From a virus, in the IMG/VR virus record IMGVR_UViG_3300037502_001960, positions 1 to 20,434 of that record: a DNA stretch of 20,434 bases. One strand, given 5' to 3'. Each line of letters starts with the position of its first letter. The first letter of the stretch is position 1. A model generated the notes under the pieces. That model saw only the letters and a program-made list of their open reading frames with translations. It did no database searches and was not told the DNA's origin. The position numbers and the translations under genes were made by a program. Positions 4,318 to 15,041 of the stretch are shown here, one piece after another.

Positions 4318-4596
4318 CTATTGCTGCACTTCTTCACCGCTATCTGAACGATAGAGTTGGAGCACTGGTTGTGCCAAGAATTTGTCTCCATCGGAGCAAG
4401 GTTCGCTGCTTGCACAATTCTTTTTTCGATCCAGATGTTGACATTGTCTGCAATCGACTTCACCCGTTGTTTGAACTGTCTGATCATTTCGAAGAGCCTC
4501 CTTCAATGCGTCAATATGAAAGACACGATCATTGCGTCGTCCACCAAACTCTAGAAAGTCTAGAACATTAATCACTGCGTCTCGTAGTTCACTCAT
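4318..4596 (-). CDS. Small Cys-containing phage protein
   Basis: 92 residues. The first 45 are helical-looking and charged (LRDAVINVLDFLEFGG, HIDALKEALRND). A possible zinc site follows, CRQC-x7-C-x5-C, then SDGDKFLAQPVLQLYR. I recall many small phage proteins ending in a similar Cys cluster followed by a short hydrophobic LQLWR-like tail, but cannot give a function. The ATG at 4596 overlaps the stop of the upstream membrane protein (4593). The codon order is consistent with a real gene, and the overlapping reading frame in its 3' half is treated under findings. Confidence 0.7.
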   Translation of the reverse strand: MSELRDAVINVLDFLEFGGRRNDRVFHIDALKEALRNDQTVQTTGEVDCRQCQHLDRKKNCASSEPCSDGDKFLAQPVLQLYRSDSGEEVQQ

Positions 4597-7092: not shown

Positions 7093-7295
7093 GCTTCGGT
7101 GCTTCGGGTAACGGGTTTGTAGATGGTGTTCGTCGTCTCGAATCCACCGTCGTCAAGATCGCGCAGGATGAGCGATGTACGCACCCAGTCTTGTCCGAGT
7201 CGCGGATGATCATATGTATACACTTTGGCATACGTGCCACCGTGACTTTCGTGCAACTCGAAACTACTTTCTTCGTATTTCACTACAGGTTTCAT
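7089..7295 (-). CDS. Phage protein of unknown function
   Basis: 68 residues beginning MKPVVKYEESSFELHESHGG, mostly beta-like alternation of polar and hydrophobic residues, with RTSLILRDLDDGGFETTNTIY in the second half. I recognise no family. It overlaps the ADP-ribosylglycohydrolase stop (7295/7292) and the integrase start (7092/7089) by 4 nt each, so it is translated between the two. An open alternative frame on the same strand (7052-7240) gives a proline/serine-rich product that looks like a shadow. It may be an accessory factor of either neighbour. Confidence 0.7.
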   Translation of the reverse strand: MKPVVKYEESSFELHESHGGTYAKVYTYDHPRLGQDWVRTSLILRDLDDGGFETTNTIYKPVTRSTEA

Positions 7296-8128
7296 TTGCT
7301 TGCTCCAATCTCAAATAGTTTGTTGGCAACTTCGAAGATACGCTTTTTATTCTGTAGCGCATCGACGTACTCTTGTGGGAAACAGCTAATGCCATACTTA
7401 GCACCAACCCACATTCCTGCGATACAAGCATTCGTATCAGTGTCGTAGCCAAACGACACCGCATGCCGCAACACTGCACCACCATCGCTGCCACCATGAT
7501 GCAGGGCGTGACGTGCTGCGTTGTAGGCATACATGATAGTGCCACGGGCATTGGCAAATTTCTCAGGGTGACACTTGAGATGCGAATATTGCGTCGATGC
7601 CCCGTTCATTAATTCGTCAACAAATGCTGTCGTATATTCTAGAATGTCGCTGTTGCCATGCGTCATCAGACTGGCAGCAACGGTGTCTGCCAATGCTCGC
7701 ATGGGATTGGTGTGATTGGCAGCAATGCATGCAGCGATACGCATGAGACTTCCATTGCCGCTGTCACGATCATTGCCTATGGCAGCATAGACAACATCGT
7801 CATACCGCATACGATTGATGGCATTGCTTGTCGTCGTACCAATGTCGAATACATAACCGCGAGTGCCATACTTGCCCGTCAATGCCCATTGTCTGAAACG
7901 CTTTGCAGCGTCTTCGGCATCGAAGTATCCACGGGATACATAGCTTTCACCAAGGGCCAATGTCAACGCGCCATCGTCGGTGTATTCACCGAGTGATACA
8001 TTGTGTGCCCCGCCTGTCGTCAGCTTGACATCCTCTGCGTCGAGTCTATCTTCGAATTCATACGGCGCACCCAACATATCACCGAGGAAAGCACCGACAA
8101 ACATTCCAACAACTTGCTCACGATTCAT
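7292..8128 (-). CDS. ADP-ribosylglycohydrolase (DraG/ARH family)
   Basis: Enzyme family that removes ADP-ribose from modified proteins or nucleic acids using two metal ions; 278 residues, the usual length. Family blocks are present in order: GAFLGDMLGAPYE at 12-24, YTDDGALTLAL at 49-59, SGNGSLMRI at 123-131, and GYDTDTNACIAG at 227-238. The second block is normally TDDT; here the Thr is Gly53, which removes one usual metal ligand, so activity may be altered. All later acidic residues are retained. ATG at 8128 has AGAAGA upstream and overlaps the preceding gene by 11 nt. In a phage the enzyme could undo host ADP-ribosylating defences or host PARylation; that role is inference. Confidence 0.9.
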   Translation of the reverse strand: MNREQVVGMFVGAFLGDMLGAPYEFEDRLDAEDVKLTTGGAHNVSLGEYTDDGALTLALGESYVSRGYFDAEDAAKRFRQWALTGKYGTRGYVFDIGTTTSNAINRMRYDDVVYAAIGNDRDSGNGSLMRIAACIAANHTNPMRALADTVAASLMTHGNSDILEYTTAFVDELMNGASTQYSHLKCHPEKFANARGTIMYAYNAARHALHHGGSDGGAVLRHAVSFGYDTDTNACIAGMWVGAKYGISCFPQEYVDALQNKKRIFEVANKLFEIGASK

Positions 8129-8830: not shown

Positions 8831-8992
8831 TTAGAATGGTGCGAGTGGAATAGACGTAAGCGCTTGCTTACTTTGCTCACGTTGTTGTCGTTGTAAAAAA
8901 CGACGCTGCCGTTGTCGTTGTGACTCGGGCAGCGCCGCACCTTTGTAGGTAGGGAAGGGCCACACAAGCGGTAGCCCATTGTTGCGTTGCAT
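8831..8992 (-). CDS. Short Gln/Arg-rich phage protein
   Basis: 53 residues: MQRNNGLPLVWPFPTYKGAAL followed by a Q/R-rich stretch (SQRQRQRRFLQRQQREQSKQ) and SIPLAPF. The ATG at 8992 overlaps the DUF932 gene stop as TAATG, the classic coupling arrangement, which supports translation although the product has no known family. The basic glutamine-rich middle could bind nucleic acid. It ends 10 nt before the next gene's start. Confidence 0.65.
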   Translation of the reverse strand: MQRNNGLPLVWPFPTYKGAALPESQRQRQRRFLQRQQREQSKQALTSIPLAPF

Positions 8993-9846
8993 TATGCAGG
9001 CAGCAGGTCGAACAACTCGCGGTTGATACGGACATGCTCAGCTACTGCGGTGACAGGGCGAGCCTTACGCATGCCGACGTTGTTGTTGGTGATGGACTTG
9101 ATCATCACGTTACCACGCAGCACATTCTCCTGAATGCGATTCCACACAGTGAAGGCATCGCTCAGGTTGTCCTCGCTACGCTGCACGCCGAGTGCATCAC
9201 GGATGGTCTTGTCAACAGCGTAGCTGCCCTTGATGGGGCGACCATCGACGTCGACAATGCTGTCGTCCCATGCACCCCAACGCTTCATCACGGCTTGCTT
9301 GGCAAGCTCATACTGCTGCATGCCGTCGAGGTTGATGTTACGGGCAACCTCGAACTGCTGCAACACCGAAGGCAAAGCTTCGATGGTAGAGCGCAGGGAT
9401 TGCTCGAATCCTGCAATCGACTTCGTCGTGTGGTAGATACGCTGCTGCATACCTTCCCCGGCAACGATGCCGTTGGAGCAGATGAAGCGGTATGCTCCGG
9501 CAAACAAACGCAGCGCAGAGCTACCATCGTGACTGTTGTAGACGATGATCTCACCACGGGTTTGACCGTCACCCTGATCGTCAGCCTTGCTGAAAGCAAC
9601 CATGTGGGTCTTGTGCTCAGCCTTGGTCGGGCTGTTCTTCGTGGGACGCTTCTGTGCAGCTTGCACAGGGAAGTAGCCGTAGTCTGCCATGATGGGCAAC
9701 AGATCCGCAGTGCGGAAGGCTGCATAGCGATCCGTCAGACGCTCCGCCTTAGTGTCCGAGAACATAGCGGGAGCACGCTGCTGCATGTCTTCGACGGTGA
9801 GCACGCCGTTGTCGTTGCGACGGGAGAAGATGAGGGATTGACGCAT
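8992..9846 (-). CDS. DUF932 (phage/plasmid-like) protein
   Basis: 284 residues. The region RLFAGAYRFICSNGIVAG near residue 115 is the hallmark of DUF932, a family spread on phages and plasmids and proposed, not proven, to act in DNA metabolism or anti-restriction. The N-terminus (TDRYAAFRTADLLPIMADYGYFPVQA) and the stretch RIYHTTKSIAGFEQSLRSTI also fit. ATG at 9846 has AAAGGAAACACC as ribosome-binding site. A near-consensus promoter at 9925-9896 lies 50-80 bp upstream, so this gene probably has its own strong transcription start. An open frame of 292 codons on the opposite strand is a shadow. Confidence 0.88.
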   Translation of the reverse strand: MRQSLIFSRRNDNGVLTVEDMQQRAPAMFSDTKAERLTDRYAAFRTADLLPIMADYGYFPVQAAQKRPTKNSPTKAEHKTHMVAFSKADDQGDGQTRGEIIVYNSHDGSSALRLFAGAYRFICSNGIVAGEGMQQRIYHTTKSIAGFEQSLRSTIEALPSVLQQFEVARNINLDGMQQYELAKQAVMKRWGAWDDSIVDVDGRPIKGSYAVDKTIRDALGVQRSEDNLSDAFTVWNRIQENVLRGNVMIKSITNNNVGMRKARPVTAVAEHVRINRELFDLLPA

Positions 9847-11667: not shown

Positions 11668-11680
11668 TTCCTTTCAGGAA
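11668..11680 (-). promoter_or_regulatory. RBS leader hairpin
   Basis: Minus strand TTCCT-GAA-AGGAA, perfect 5-bp stem; the 3' arm is the Shine-Dalgarno sequence, 6 nt from the ATG at 11662. Confidence 0.6.
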
Positions 11681-12111: not shown

Positions 12112-12253
12112 TGGGGTTATTTGCCCCATTGTCGACCTGTCGCATGAGGTTGCATGTAACATACATGCTCACTCACACTTCGTCGCATTGCGTCTGTCGG
12201 AACCCGGCATCACCCGGCTAGCTTCTCACCGACTCGGCACTGCGTCGCATTGG
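12112..12253 (-). ncRNA. Candidate small RNA from an orphan promoter
   Basis: A perfect promoter (12288-12259) is followed leftward by about 140 nt without a credible gene before the next promoter region begins. The predicted transcript holds GCATGTA-TGT-TACATGC (7-bp stem, 12159-12143 region), GGGG-CAAATAA-CCCC at its end (12127-12113), and short CCGA/TCGG and CCGG/CCGG pairs. A 15-bp direct repeat with one mismatch (CACTTCGTCGCATTG at 12176-12190, CACTGCGTCGCATTG at 12238-12252) lies within it. There is no U-run after the last stem, so the 3' end is uncertain. It could instead be just a leader. Confidence 0.35.
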
Positions 12254-12258
12254 CTTTT

Positions 12259-12288
12259 ATTATAATCGCCAACGAAAAACCCTGTCAA
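12259..12288 (-). promoter_or_regulatory. Consensus sigma70 promoter (orphan)
   Basis: Minus strand: TTGACA (12288-12283), 18-bp spacer, TATAAT (12264-12259). The -35 box lies in the loop of an inverted repeat (CAACGAAA at 12270-12277 with TTTCGTTG at 12299-12306, inner CCCT/AGGG). No gene follows directly; see the candidate small RNA. Confidence 0.8.
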
Positions 12289-12308
12289 CTGTAGGGGCTT
12301 TCGTTGAC

Positions 12309-12324
12309 GTCCCCCGAAGGGGAC
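12309..12324 (-). terminator. UUCG hairpin after the gp88-like gene
   Basis: The minus-strand RNA forms GUCCCC-UUCG-GGGGAC, a 6-bp GC-rich stem closed by the extra-stable C(UUCG)G loop, 12 bp after the stop at 12337. No U-run follows directly, so it may protect the 3' end or act together with the next inverted repeat (12270-12306) rather than terminate alone. Confidence 0.45.
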
Positions 12325-12336
12325 AGTCGCTACGTA

Positions 12337-13200
12337 TCAGTGGACAGCGATGGCGATGACACGTCCCTTGAACACGTCGCTACCGCATGCATGCCCTACG
12401 TTGGTGCATGTGCCGCACTTGCCGGGGCAAGGGAAAACTTTGTTTTCGAATGCGGCACGCAACGCATCGTTGACGGGCTTCGTACCGTAGTCCGAAGACT
12501 TGATTTTGCGACCGATGCTGACGGCGACGAAGTCGCCGCGAACGAAGGGCATCGAACGGATTTCGTTGACTACGTCAACCGACGCATTGTGACCCGACGA
12601 AATATTCAAACGATAGTTTGCCGGGACAACACCGCCGCTCTTGACGAAGTCAAGCAACAGAGCGAAGCTCTTGCTGTAGCCGTAGGCTTTCACCGACGGA
12701 GTCAGCGAAAGCTGACGCATCCAAAAGGCGACGTCACTACGTGACGAAAAGTCGCCGTCAACGTACAGCCGGAAATCGAAACCCGTAGGGTTCTGTTCCA
12801 TCAGCTTGGCAAACGAAGATGCGATAGCATCTTGATCGAAGCGCATCAGGTATGCATTCTGACACTGACGAAAGAATGCGGCGGGATAGCGCCAAGCTCT
12901 GAAGCTGTAGCAGAATGCTAAGCATTCTCCGGCTCCGGGACAGGTAACACCGGGCAGGGTAGAGAAAGCATAGAACGGCAGCTTGCTGTTGCCTTCGGCA
13001 AAGATGCTGAAGGGTACGGTGCCCTGAAGCAAAGCTTCAAATTTCGCAATGTTGGCTTGCCAGCCCTTCGAAGCAAACAAAGGGGAAGCTTTCAGCTTCA
13101 GGATGGCTTGCTCAATAGCAGCTTCGCTGCCAGTCTGTACCGTGACGGCAAAGCTCTGCAAAGCAGAGAACTTAGCGGTAGTGAAGTGACGAACTTGCAT
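12337..13200 (-). CDS. gp88-like cysteine-rich phage protein
   Basis: 287 residues. KLPFYAFSTLPGVTCPGAGECLAFCYSFRAWRY (73-105; C87, C93, C97) and a C-terminal FPCPGKCGTCTNVGHACG (C258, C262, C265, C272) match the layout of the family named after mycobacteriophage gene product 88: a central CPxAGxCxxxCY motif, then an R-x-x-x-DGDF segment (144-151 here) and a terminal Cys cluster. The cysteines suggest bound Fe-S or zinc; the biochemical role is unknown. ATG at 13200 has AAAGGAAACATC and a 6-bp leader hairpin, with its own promoter at 13269-13241. The open frame to 13269 only covers leader and promoter. The coding sequence is packed with perfect short hairpins (see findings). Confidence 0.82.
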   Translation of the reverse strand: MQVRHFTTAKFSALQSFAVTVQTGSEAAIEQAILKLKASPLFASKGWQANIAKFEALLQGTVPFSIFAEGNSKLPFYAFSTLPGVTCPGAGECLAFCYSFRAWRYPAAFFRQCQNAYLMRFDQDAIASSFAKLMEQNPTGFDFRLYVDGDFSSRSDVAFWMRQLSLTPSVKAYGYSKSFALLLDFVKSGGVVPANYRLNISSGHNASVDVVNEIRSMPFVRGDFVAVSIGRKIKSSDYGTKPVNDALRAAFENKVFPCPGKCGTCTNVGHACGSDVFKGRVIAIAVH

Positions 13201-13204
13201 GATG

Positions 13205-13219
13205 TTTCCTTTCAGGAAA
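13205..13219 (-). promoter_or_regulatory. RBS leader hairpin of the gp88-like gene
   Basis: Minus strand TTTCCT-GAA-AGGAAA, a perfect 6-bp stem with GAA loop, 4 nt before the ATG at 13200. The complete Shine-Dalgarno sequence lies in the 3' arm. This is the longest example of the shared leader. Confidence 0.65.
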
Positions 13220-13240
13220 GATGTTGCGGAAAGTGTCGCC

Positions 13241-13269
13241 ATTGTAGGGCGGCGACAAAACCCTGTCAA
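13241..13269 (-). promoter_or_regulatory. Sigma70-type promoter for the gp88-like gene
   Basis: Minus strand: TTGACA (13269-13264), 17-bp spacer, TACAAT (13246-13241); predicted start near 13234, leader about 35 nt. Confidence 0.85.
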
Positions 13270-13277
13270 CTGTGAGG

Positions 13278-13499
13278 TTAATCGATGAGCTTCGGAAGCG
13301 GAGCTTCATCACGCTCAGCGCAGGTCTGCTGAATCAAAGATTCAGCCGATGCCATCACTTGAATGATGGTGTTGTCGAAGGTAACGTAGTTACCGAATCC
13401 GTCATCACTGTAAAAGCCTATGGCTTTACTGGGGATAATGACGCTGAACAAACCTTGGGTAGTTTCTACGAAACTAGGTACGTTGTGCAGATAACGCAT
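13278..13499 (-). CDS. Small phage protein of unknown function
   Basis: 73 residues: MRYLHNVPSFVETTQGLFSVIIP, then KAIGFYSDDGFGNYVTFDN and a helical acidic end. No family recognised; it appears to be a small beta-rich domain plus a helix. ATG at 13499 follows the TTCCT-GAA-AGGAA leader, and a promoter lies at 13578-13549, so it is the first gene of the leftward arm. Like its neighbour it contains several perfect hairpins (8 bp at 13328-13346, 7 bp at 13460-13476, 6 bp at 13380-13394 and 13413-13427). The frame stays open to 13550 but that part is leader. Confidence 0.72.
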   Translation of the reverse strand: MRYLHNVPSFVETTQGLFSVIIPSKAIGFYSDDGFGNYVTFDNTIIQVMASAESLIQQTCAERDEAPLPKLID

Positions 13500-13504
13500 G
13501 GTGT

Positions 13505-13517
13505 TTCCTTTCAGGAA
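13505..13517 (-). promoter_or_regulatory. RBS leader hairpin
   Basis: Minus strand TTCCT-GAA-AGGAA, 5-bp stem, Shine-Dalgarno in the 3' arm, before the ATG at 13499. Confidence 0.6.
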
Positions 13518-13548
13518 TGTGACAGCGGGATGCCGTCGATGGGTCTGC

Positions 13549-13578
13549 ATTATGCCGAGCTTCGAATACCCGAGTCAA
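13549..13578 (-). promoter_or_regulatory. First promoter of the leftward arm
   Basis: Minus strand: TTGACT (13578-13573), 18-bp spacer, CATAAT (13554-13549). It has the same CCC...TTGACTCGGG surroundings as the promoter at 11261-11232. Confidence 0.8.
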
Positions 13579-13761
13579 GCGAAGGGTTTTTCGGCATCGG
13601 CTTTGGCAGCGAAGCTGCTGCGAGTGCGCGTACGCTGTGCGGGTGTATGTGATGTGGACACGCGAACGAGGGGGTGTGCCTTGTGACGTGCGCGTTCCGG
13701 GATCGGGTGACGCAGAGCAGGGTAGGGTGTCAGAGACTATGTCTCTGCGGTGGAGTGATGG

Positions 13762-13793
13762 AGAGTGATGGAGAGCTTCGGAAACTATGTTTC
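13762..13793. repeat. 32-bp direct repeat, copy 1
   Basis: AGAGTGATG then one variable base, then AGAGCTTCGGAAACTATGTT and TC; matches 13810-13841 with a single mismatch. Its 3' half is the arm-loop-arm GAAAC-TAT-GTTTC. Confidence 0.8.
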
Positions 13794-13809
13794 TGTGTTG
13801 GAGCGGCAC

Positions 13810-13841
13810 AGAGTGATGCAGAGCTTCGGAAACTATGTTTC
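13810..13841. repeat. 32-bp direct repeat, copy 2
   Basis: 31 of 32 bases match 13762-13793. Here the hairpin is extended to CGGAAAC-TAT-GTTTCCG and enclosed by GAGCTTCGGA/TCCGAAGCTC. Confidence 0.8.
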
Positions 13842-13883
13842 CGGTAGCGTACTCCGAAGCTCGGATTCAAACACTTGTTTGAA

Positions 13884-13899
13884 GTTAGTGACCACTAAC
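13884..13899. promoter_or_regulatory. Dyad GTTAGTGACCACTAAC, operator candidate
   Basis: Two 7-bp arms around a 2-bp centre. The dyad plus the following A recurs 253 bp to the right with one changed base. Typical size for a dimeric repressor site; the cognate protein is not in this window. Confidence 0.45.
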
Positions 13900-14136
13900 A
13901 TACGATTTTCACCATTTTACGTCGCTCCGACTTATGTCAAAGACATAGGCTAAGTGCTTGATTCCTAACGGAATCTGATGCGCGTGAGATCGTGCTACGC
14001 AACGCATTATGCGCGATCACATGACGCACACACACACGGCAACGAAGTTGCTGCGAGCGTAGCCGGGCGTGGGCCACCGGGGGGTGCACGCGCTACTATA
14101 TACAGCCTCGTACACAGATTAGGTATTTTTAGTTAT

Positions 14137-14152
14137 GTTAGTAACCACTAAC
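14137..14152. promoter_or_regulatory. Dyad GTTAGTAACCACTAAC, operator candidate
   Basis: Second copy of the 16-bp dyad at 13884-13899 (one base different). The two bracket a 240-bp hairpin-rich segment in the divergence region. Confidence 0.45.
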
Positions 14153-14337
14153 AAGGAAACACAGTCTCCACCACATTCTTAGCTCTACACCACTCCACAC
14201 ACACGCCACCGATCTGCCCCACTCGTCACCGCTTGTACACATCAGCTAAATAGCCTACACCATCTCAATTGAGAATCGTTCTTATTTGCATTCGTATTAT
14301 CGCTCGTCGATGTAAAAACACAGACCTCCAAAGTCTA

Positions 14338-14371
14338 GGGCACAGCAAAAACGACTCTGTCCCCATTTTTT
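14338..14371 (+). terminator. Intrinsic terminator-like hairpin
   Basis: Plus strand: GGG(C)ACAG, 11-nt loop, CTGTCCC, then CA and six T. The stem is 7 bp with one bulged C. It would end a short rightward transcript beginning between about 14270 and 14310. Confidence 0.45.
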
Positions 14372-14375
14372 CAGC

Positions 14376-14606
14376 TTGACATCGTCACGTTAGCTGTGTA
14401 AAACTGGTGCCGTTGATCGGACGGGTAACGGTGGCGATCAACCACAGACAGCGCTACCACGGGACAGACATTGAAACAGCGCAACGGGACGGCGAAGACA
14501 GCATCCCAATGTCGAAAGGCTCGTCGAGTCGTGGTGGTGTCCATAATAACACCGCTGTGTAAAGGCTTAGCAGGAAGGCTAAGTCCGTCTATACAGCTAT
14601 ATAGAC
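14376..14606 (+). ncRNA. Candidate multi-helix structured RNA
   Basis: Perfect helices in nested order: GTTGATCG/CGATCAAC (14412-14419 with 14435-14442); P1 ACAGC/GCTGT (14448-14452 with 14554-14558); inside it P2 ACCACG/CGTGGT (14456-14461 with 14530-14535); inside that P3 GACATTG/CAATGTC (14467-14473 with 14507-14513); and P4 GGTGT/ACACC (14536-14540 with 14549-14553), stacked directly between P2 and P1. CTTAGC/GCTAAG (14566-14583) and GTCTATA/TATAGAC (14587-14606) follow. A weak promoter, TTGACA (14376-14381) with TAAAAC 17 bp on, precedes it. Strand is uncertain because helices can form on either. No known RNA class was recognised. Confidence 0.4.
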
Positions 14607-14720
14607 CAATAACACTCCTTCTTAAAGCAACTATTAAATAATTGATGCTTGTTAATAAAATAAATATCAGCGCTACTAGTTGCAATCATCTTTAAACCTT
14701 GTCAATATTTCTCTAATATG

Positions 14721-14749
14721 TTGACAGCCTTATTCAAAGTTGTTATGAT
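14721..14749 (+). promoter_or_regulatory. Sigma70-type promoter of the rightward arm
   Basis: TTGACA (14721-14726), 17-bp spacer, TATGAT (14744-14749), about 35 bp before the ATG at 14787. A TGTCAA at 14700-14705 forms an inverted pair with the -35 box and could be part of an operator. Confidence 0.8.
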
Positions 14750-14786
14750 GTTGTTCTGATGAATACGTCATCAGAAAGGACGTCCT

Positions 14787-15041
14787 ATGTCTTCGTTTAA
14801 AACAAGAGAACAACTTAGCGCTAGAGTCAACGATCCTCCGCATAGTTATTATTCGGTAGCGATGAAAGAAATCTTTAAGCATCGCGAAGAAGTTAAAACC
14901 GTTGGTTTTCATTCTGATGTTTATTACGTTAGAGCAGCATTAGAAAAACATACGGGGTTTCTGATACCGCTTCCACTCGTTGATAAAGCGATGAGAGACG
15001 AAGGATGGTATGAAGGCGTAGTGAATAGACGTCGTAAGTGA
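14787..15041 (+). CDS. First rightward gene, unknown function
   Basis: 84 residues: MSSFKTREQLSARVNDPPHS, then MKEIFKHREEVKTVGFHSDVYYVRAALEKHTGFLIP and LVDKAMRDEGWYEG ending in RRRK. Basic and helical, with a possible winged or helix-turn-helix-like DNA-binding segment at about 40-75 (SDVYYVRAALEKHTG...LPLVDKAMRDEGW), but no family is recognised. ATG at 14787 follows GAAAGGACGTCCT, and a strong promoter is 37 bp upstream. It is followed by a large hairpin rather than by a coupled gene, so it forms its own unit. Being alone behind a strong promoter at the arm divergence, a regulator is a reasonable guess but not shown. Confidence 0.75.
   Translation: MSSFKTREQLSARVNDPPHSYYSVAMKEIFKHREEVKTVGFHSDVYYVRAALEKHTGFLIPLPLVDKAMRDEGWYEGVVNRRRK

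Follow-up and report, generated by a model that had tools for sequence, protein, structure and literature searches.

A dense array of perfect triloop hairpins with a DNA-level signature in the early region of a phage clade

Introduction

Why would a phage gene be filled with short, perfect hairpins? The question arises from a 20,434-bp virus record (IMGVR_UViG_3300037502_001960; hereafter the window, meaning this whole stretch of DNA), in which an initial annotation had described a gp88-like gene packed with perfect stem-loops. It had proposed that something selects for or produces them, whether as mRNA architecture, as protein-binding sites or through template switching at quasi-palindromes. 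Here we measure the excess, ask whether its signature is that of RNA or DNA, follow it through related phages, and weigh selection against mutation as its source.

Results

We defined a hairpin as a perfect stem with a loop of 3-4 nt, set stem thresholds of at least 5 or at least 6 bp, and compared coding sequences with 1000 synonymous-codon shuffles that kept both protein and codon usage. The gp88-like gene (12337-13200, minus strand; 287 aa; PF17338, E 1.7e-16) contains 11 hairpins with stems of at least 6 bp, the number originally counted; the shuffles averaged 1.16 and never exceeded 5. With stems of at least 5 bp there are 19, not the 16 first reported, against a mean of 3.3 and a maximum of 10; codon-preserving shuffling did not reproduce the density. 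Ten hairpins had been given as examples, and direct counting found each exact in position and sequence: CGGCGAC-GAA-GTCGCCG (12522-12538), GTTGAC-TAC-GTCAAC (12565-12579), CTTGAC-GAA-GTCAAG (12640-12654), the tetraloop GTCAGC-GAAA-GCTGAC (12701-12716), CGTCAC-TAC-GTGACG (12732-12746), the tetraloop AAGATGC-GATA-GCATCTT (12816-12833), AGAATGC-TAA-GCATTCT (12912-12928), TGAAGC-AAA-GCTTCA (13025-13039), GAAGCT-TTC-AGCTTC (13085-13099) and CTCTGC-AAA-GCAGAG (13154-13168). The 73-aa ORF that follows (13278-13499, minus strand), to which we could assign no function, has five hairpins with stems of at least 5 bp and four with stems of at least 6 bp, compared with 0.21 in codon shuffles. The recount of these four gave the same 8, 7, 6 and 6 bp as before: GCTGAATC-AAA-GATTCAGC (13328-13346), TAGTTTC-TAC-GAAACTA (13460-13476), GGTAAC-GTA-GTTACC (13380-13394) and AAAGCC-TAT-GGCTTT (13413-13427).

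The gene is hairpin-rich, as annotated, but the feature is wider than the gene. It forms a zone at approximately 12309-14153 that spans gp88, the ORF after it and the intergenic DNA of the divergent junction at much the same density; about 650 bp of it is non-coding. The intergenic part (13500-14160) carries 18 hairpins per kb, similar to the 21 per kb of gp88, and includes CAGAGAC-TAT-GTCTCTG (13731-13747), CGGAAAC-TAT-GTTTCCG (13827-13843), TTCAAAC-ACTT-GTTTGAA (13866-13883), TATGTC-AAA-GACATA (13933-13947) and GATTCC-TAAC-GGAATC (13960-13975). Whether coding or not, the zone has one hairpin per about 48-50 bp; the regularity of this spacing (CV 0.43-0.54, compared with 0.63-0.67 expected) is suggestive only. 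On the left the zone ends at GTCCCC-CGAA-GGGGAC (12309-12324), which reads C-TTCG-G on the gp88 strand and lies 13 nt 3' of the gp88 stop codon. Across the whole window there are 49 hairpins with stems of at least 6 bp, and 24 of the 49 fall inside the zone, which is 9% of the length; the adjoining intergenic stretch at 14160-14700 has none.

In the primase, integrase and virion genes, hairpins with stems of at least 6 bp occur at the level of codon shuffles. We conclude that the excess in the gp88 region is real. Chance, base composition, codon bias or an assembly artefact can be discounted almost entirely as its source: codon and zone shuffles refute chance and composition, and the zone recurs with intact reading frames on contigs from several different metagenomes.

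The DUF932 gene (8992-9846, minus strand) had been credited with only about one hairpin, which is slightly low. It has two with stems of at least 6 bp (p 0.08) and nine with stems of at least 5 bp, compared with 1.8 in codon shuffles, and belongs to the array's weaker tail.

Two other elements lie at the right side of the zone. A pair of near-identical 16-bp dyads, GTTAGTGACCACTAAC at 13884-13899 and GTTAGTAACCACTAAC at 14137-14152, the second marking the zone's right edge, is spaced by 252-254 bp in five genomes; from their sequence, the paired dyads resemble operators that could loop DNA. The sole Rfam match, the 'Betaproteobacteria-1' sRNA (RF02932; 14410-14529, plus strand; 73.4 bits, E 9.4e-13), adjoins the zone. 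It is found at the same place in three related records (L010, L011, L014), is absent from three others (L061, L070, L032), and hints at a betaproteobacterial host.

The bias in loop sequence noted at the outset is real and stronger than stated. In the 1861 bp of the zone we counted 29 perfect triloops with stems of at least 5 bp and 17 with stems of at least 6 bp, where 1.9 and 0.3 were expected; tetraloops were only weakly enriched, and loops of 5 nt or more were mostly accounted for by shorter loops nested within them. Seven gp88 homologs gave the same picture, with 7-13 triloop hairpins of at least 6 bp per gene compared with 0.7-1.0 in codon shuffles, loops of 4 nt weakly above shuffles and loops of 5-12 nt at chance. 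Pooled over the clade, 89 of 132 triloops were closed by a C-G pair, and 84 of these 89 had one of four pairs of loop ends: G..A (GNA, 27), T..C (TNC, 26), A..A (ANA, 15) or T..T (TNT, 16). These classes make up about 30% of background mini-hairpins. Where such a signature loop was in place, the next five pairs were perfect at 48 of 268 sites (0.3 expected), compared with only 4 of 482 sites for other C..G triloops.

The stems are bounded in size. Among triloops of the clade A zones, stems of 5, 6, 7 and 8 bp numbered 36, 44, 26 and 6, with a peak at 6 and none above 8, and complementarity past the stem ends was at chance level with no resumption. The stems share no sequence motif beyond the closing C-G pair, which speaks against sequence-specific protein sites as first suggested; a protein that recognizes the structure could still be involved.

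C-GNA-G mini-hairpins of the d(GCGAAGC) type are unusually stable as DNA and have been reported in some replication origins. The array has the same loop but is written through genes, whereas that motif is isolated. For the stability of GNA loops we draw on the N4 literature discussed below and on general knowledge, and we infer that of ANA loops.

We next asked whether the hairpins act in RNA, with early transcripts full of stem-loops that set stability, translation speed or RNase access. The local folding of gp88 mRNA is indeed more stable than that of synonymous shuffles (z -4.7), and an RNA-type hairpin covers the ribosome-binding site in gene leaders. However, the antisense strand folds almost as stably (z -3.9), and the loop classes divide 42:42 between strands across the clade, with GNA as frequent as TNC, and ANA as TNT, on the mRNA strand. 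Among mismatched pairs read on that strand, G·U was no commoner than A·C (7 vs 13, and 16 vs 23 in a second tally). Non-coding DNA is as dense in hairpins as coding DNA, and RNA loop penalties (5.4 vs 5.6 kcal/mol, ViennaRNA defaults) leave the preference for triloops over tetraloops unexplained. We therefore consider mRNA architecture, one of the original proposals, improbable. Because the loop classes are strand-symmetric and G·U pairs are not tolerated, the array points to a structure of DNA rather than of mRNA. A duplex that extrudes hairpins would need facing purines (G·A or A·A) at the loop ends on either strand, and so would single-stranded DNA of either polarity.

The leader hairpin was counted apart from the array. 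The shared minus-strand leader TTCCTGAAAGGAA (11668-11680, 13206-13218, 13505-13517) precedes successive early genes and covers the ribosome-binding site with a perfect hairpin; at gp88 it extends to TTTCCT-GAA-AGGAAA (13205-13219, minus strand). It occurs in 3-8 copies per related record, with TCTCAAA-ggtt-TTTGAGA in its place in a distant lineage, and is probably an RNA-level element separate from the array. We also considered intrinsic terminators and rejected them: 12200-14900 has six terminator-like sites with a stem and U tract, where shuffles have 2.4 on average (sd 1.8), and a single one of the six is an array hairpin.

Near-consensus sigma-70 promoters are predicted at 12288-12259, 13269-13241 and 13578-13549 on the minus strand and 14721-14749 on the plus strand, the first of them matching TTGACA-18-TATAAT at 12 of 12 positions. 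Those at 13269 and 13578 lie just upstream of gp88 and the 73-aa ORF, so each early gene may own a promoter.

Hairpins of this geometry have a known use in N4 (Schitoviridae), whose virion RNA polymerase recognizes early promoters with a 5-7 bp stem, a 3-nt loop and a C-G closing pair, also in the early region of a dsDNA phage. The N4 hairpins need this closing pair, and also the G and A that begin and end the loop, both to extrude under supercoiling and to be stable (PMC4496689). Our criterion returned nine sites in the first 50 kb of N4, of which 90-102, 557-573 and 4546-4562 fit its three early promoters, and in our clade 53 of the 89 C-closed triloops have G..A loop ends on one of the two strands and 31 of 89 have A..A. 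The geometry and loop are thus those of N4 promoter hairpins. N4, however, has three hairpins in one orientation (GNA on the template strand), with conserved flanks and loop bases and a polymerase of ~3500 aa, whereas the array has ~20-30, about 20 per zone, in both orientations and within coding sequence, and no polymerase was detected. The largest ORFs in two genomes (G001, G004) are 1164 and 1178 aa, on contigs that may be incomplete; four long late proteins of G001 have no polymerase motif C and no plausible motif B; and a PF00940 search for an RNA polymerase gave no match in our genomes but none in the control genomes either, and so carries no weight. Good sigma-70 promoters also precede the genes. 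That the array consists of N4-like promoters for a virion polymerase is, on this evidence, very improbable. As a physical basis for it, by analogy, supercoil-driven extrusion of the N4 kind is the best available model.

To see how the zone is distributed, we compared related loci. In the closest, gp88 is 97, 92, 78 and 77% identical; a profile search added relatives at 73-74% and many at 44-60%. The zone is carried by the window and eight other contigs of the clade (gp88 73-97% identical; three of them nearly identical among themselves), which keep the hairpin density while single hairpins shift place. In clade A genomes the early operon opens with two kb at 7-9 signature hairpins per kb, followed by five kb at about 1 per kb and then by nearly none, so that the tail reaches ~6 kb into the operon. 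On the opposite side the density falls at once, with a sharp edge at the dyads.

A second lineage (clade B, L059-L062; gp88 48% identical) has a zone of its own, with the same loop habit and just before its early genes. It contributes few hairpins, and their strand ratio of 10:3 (p 0.09) does not establish symmetry. Its zone, at the divergent junction, coincides with its cumulative GC-skew minimum; the zone of our clade also lies at a divergent junction, and a GC-skew minimum at the zone is clear in one genome only (G008). In the remaining relatives no kb holds more than two signature hairpins, and the zone is absent from genomes whose primase is up to 77% identical but whose gp88 is 55-58% identical. 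T7 and N4 have no zone and low counts of signature hairpins. Megablast against phages gave no match, and a scan of 84,980 prokaryote genomes with the gp88 profile, meant to find a host, returned no relative. No gene was common to zone lineages A and B and missing from eight zone-negative genomes, and no candidate for a hairpin reader was therefore found.

We then examined how single hairpins evolve. Some positions persist between homologs and others move: a stem of at least 5 bp is present at the place of 12522-12538 in all clade A genes compared, whereas in L005 a different, overlapping hairpin replaces 12816-12833. At several kept positions both arms have changed. CTTGAC/GTCAAG (12640) is GTTGAC/GTCAAC in L006 and L007; GTCAGC/GCTGAC (12701) is AATTGC/GCAATT and CGTCAC/GTGACG (12732) is CATCAC/GTGATG in L005; GAAAAC-TTT-GTTTTC (12433-12447) has exchanged A-T for G-C on both arms, giving GAAGAC/GTCTTC, in L004, L005 and L007; and the 5-bp stem GCAGC-TTC-GCTGC (13118-13130) is GGAAGC/GCTTCC in L004. 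Ancestral stems took 50 substitutions, 17 of them compensated, where by our own estimate about one would be by chance, and uncompensated third-position changes were rarer in stems than outside (7.0% vs 12.5%; p 0.011, approximate because the comparisons share branches). Turnover is nonetheless fast: between L014 and L013, which are 18% divergent, 25% of stem pairs are broken, and selection on any one hairpin is therefore weak. The stems of homologs thus decay and move, but the initial annotation had named decay without compensation as refuting it, and here compensation is in excess and density is kept. Together with the codon shuffles, the nine clade contigs and the second lineage, this bears out its broader claim that the hairpins are selected or produced.

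Could they be produced without function? Template switching might start at stable C-GNA-G or C-ANA-G nuclei, where, as the region replicates, a nascent 3' end folds, copies a few bases of its own strand and returns, making perfect hairpins of quasi-palindromes, and hairpin density would then be a balance of generation and decay. Hairpins can be created and maintained in this way (PMC8794818), T7 replisome reactions yield template-switch chimeras (PMC9484634), and these phages encode a DNA polymerase and primase/helicase families of the T7 type. The perfect arms fit, as do the fast turnover and the rewriting of single arms, which lean toward mutation. In several gains the rewriting is chiefly on one arm and conserved amino acids change, as in L007, where AAACTAT-tgct-ATAGTTT stands in place of 12912-12928 and CLAFCYSF has become CLNYCYSF; multi-base changes of one arm with amino-acid replacement were seen at L014 30, 111 and 156, L013 121, L007 288 and L005 369. 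Stems favor variable amino-acid columns by a factor of two (34% vs 16%), while unique amino acids show no association with stems. The fall in density away from the divergent junction would suit a hot zone of replication initiation.

Individual cases thus fit the template-switching proposal, but in our tally gains are not clearly more one-armed than a binomial would predict. Other features lean toward selection. Exact strand symmetry is unexpected if one nascent strand dominates, and neither the limit on stem length nor the equal density of coding and non-coding DNA favors template switching. Imperfect hairpins are few (23 signature-loop hairpins with one mismatch vs 48 perfect), where we estimate that simple neutral decay would leave more imperfect than perfect, although continuing conversion of arms could still account for the shortfall. 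We regard a purely mutational origin as the main and still live rival, though a less likely one.

Discussion

Our favored reading, with a probability of about 0.5, is that the early-control region carries an array of DNA mini-hairpins able to extrude, kept by selection on DNA structure. Each unit would be a perfect inverted repeat of 5-8 bp with a C-G-closed 3-nt loop. On one of the two strands, the outer bases of that loop could pair as sheared purines (G-A or A-A). Such hairpins would extrude in vivo under negative supercoiling, or fold in transiently single-stranded DNA, and their setting at a divergent junction of the early-control region is where supercoiling and DNA opening should peak. 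Selection would act on the number of structures and on no single site, with the codons of gp88, and those of its residues that tolerate change, fitted to them, and template switching is a plausible source of variation even so. The likely use would be as a topological sink, or as a structural platform for landing or opening in early transcription or replication initiation. More tentatively, and at a little short of even odds, the zone may be an undescribed element of ~2 kb in which supercoil-extrudable mini-hairpins run through coding and control DNA as a structural platform, evolved at least twice.

Other systems share parts of this pattern. The palindromes in mitochondrial coding sequences of Nematomorpha (PMC6649704) are likewise perfect repeats in conserved genes, with dynamic gain and loss and few imperfect copies, but they reach 284 bp, whereas the array keeps to stems of 5-8 bp, a 3-nt loop and strict loop chemistry within one segment. 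Template-switch hotspots at quasi-palindromes (PMC8794818, PMC8604942) also show perfect arms, concerted arm change and multinucleotide changes in coding sequence. Those cases are scattered, whereas the array is regional, strand-symmetric and specific to loop classes. To our knowledge, the hotspot cases have no fixed loop class. Our searches of the open-licence literature turned up no phage with a dense array of triloop DNA hairpins, and none is known to us.

Structural constraint on coding sequence is usually argued for RNA, and the constraint on gp88 has the signature of folded DNA. If it is selected, DNA hairpins that extrude would be usable in bulk, beyond the three N4 promoters to which they have been tied until now; if it is mutational, template switching would be rewriting a conserved protein across a region to a striking degree. 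Either way, the region offers a natural assay for both processes.

Two genes were noted in the clade A genomes. An ADP-ribosylglycohydrolase (7292-8128, minus strand; PF03747, E 7e-44) is encoded by six of six zone-bearing clade A genomes and by none of eight zone-negative ones. A 654-aa late protein with a stretch that, by eye, is ADP-ribosyltransferase-like (ITIYHGGSREKIASIEREGF; L075:15156-17120) is found in clade A only.
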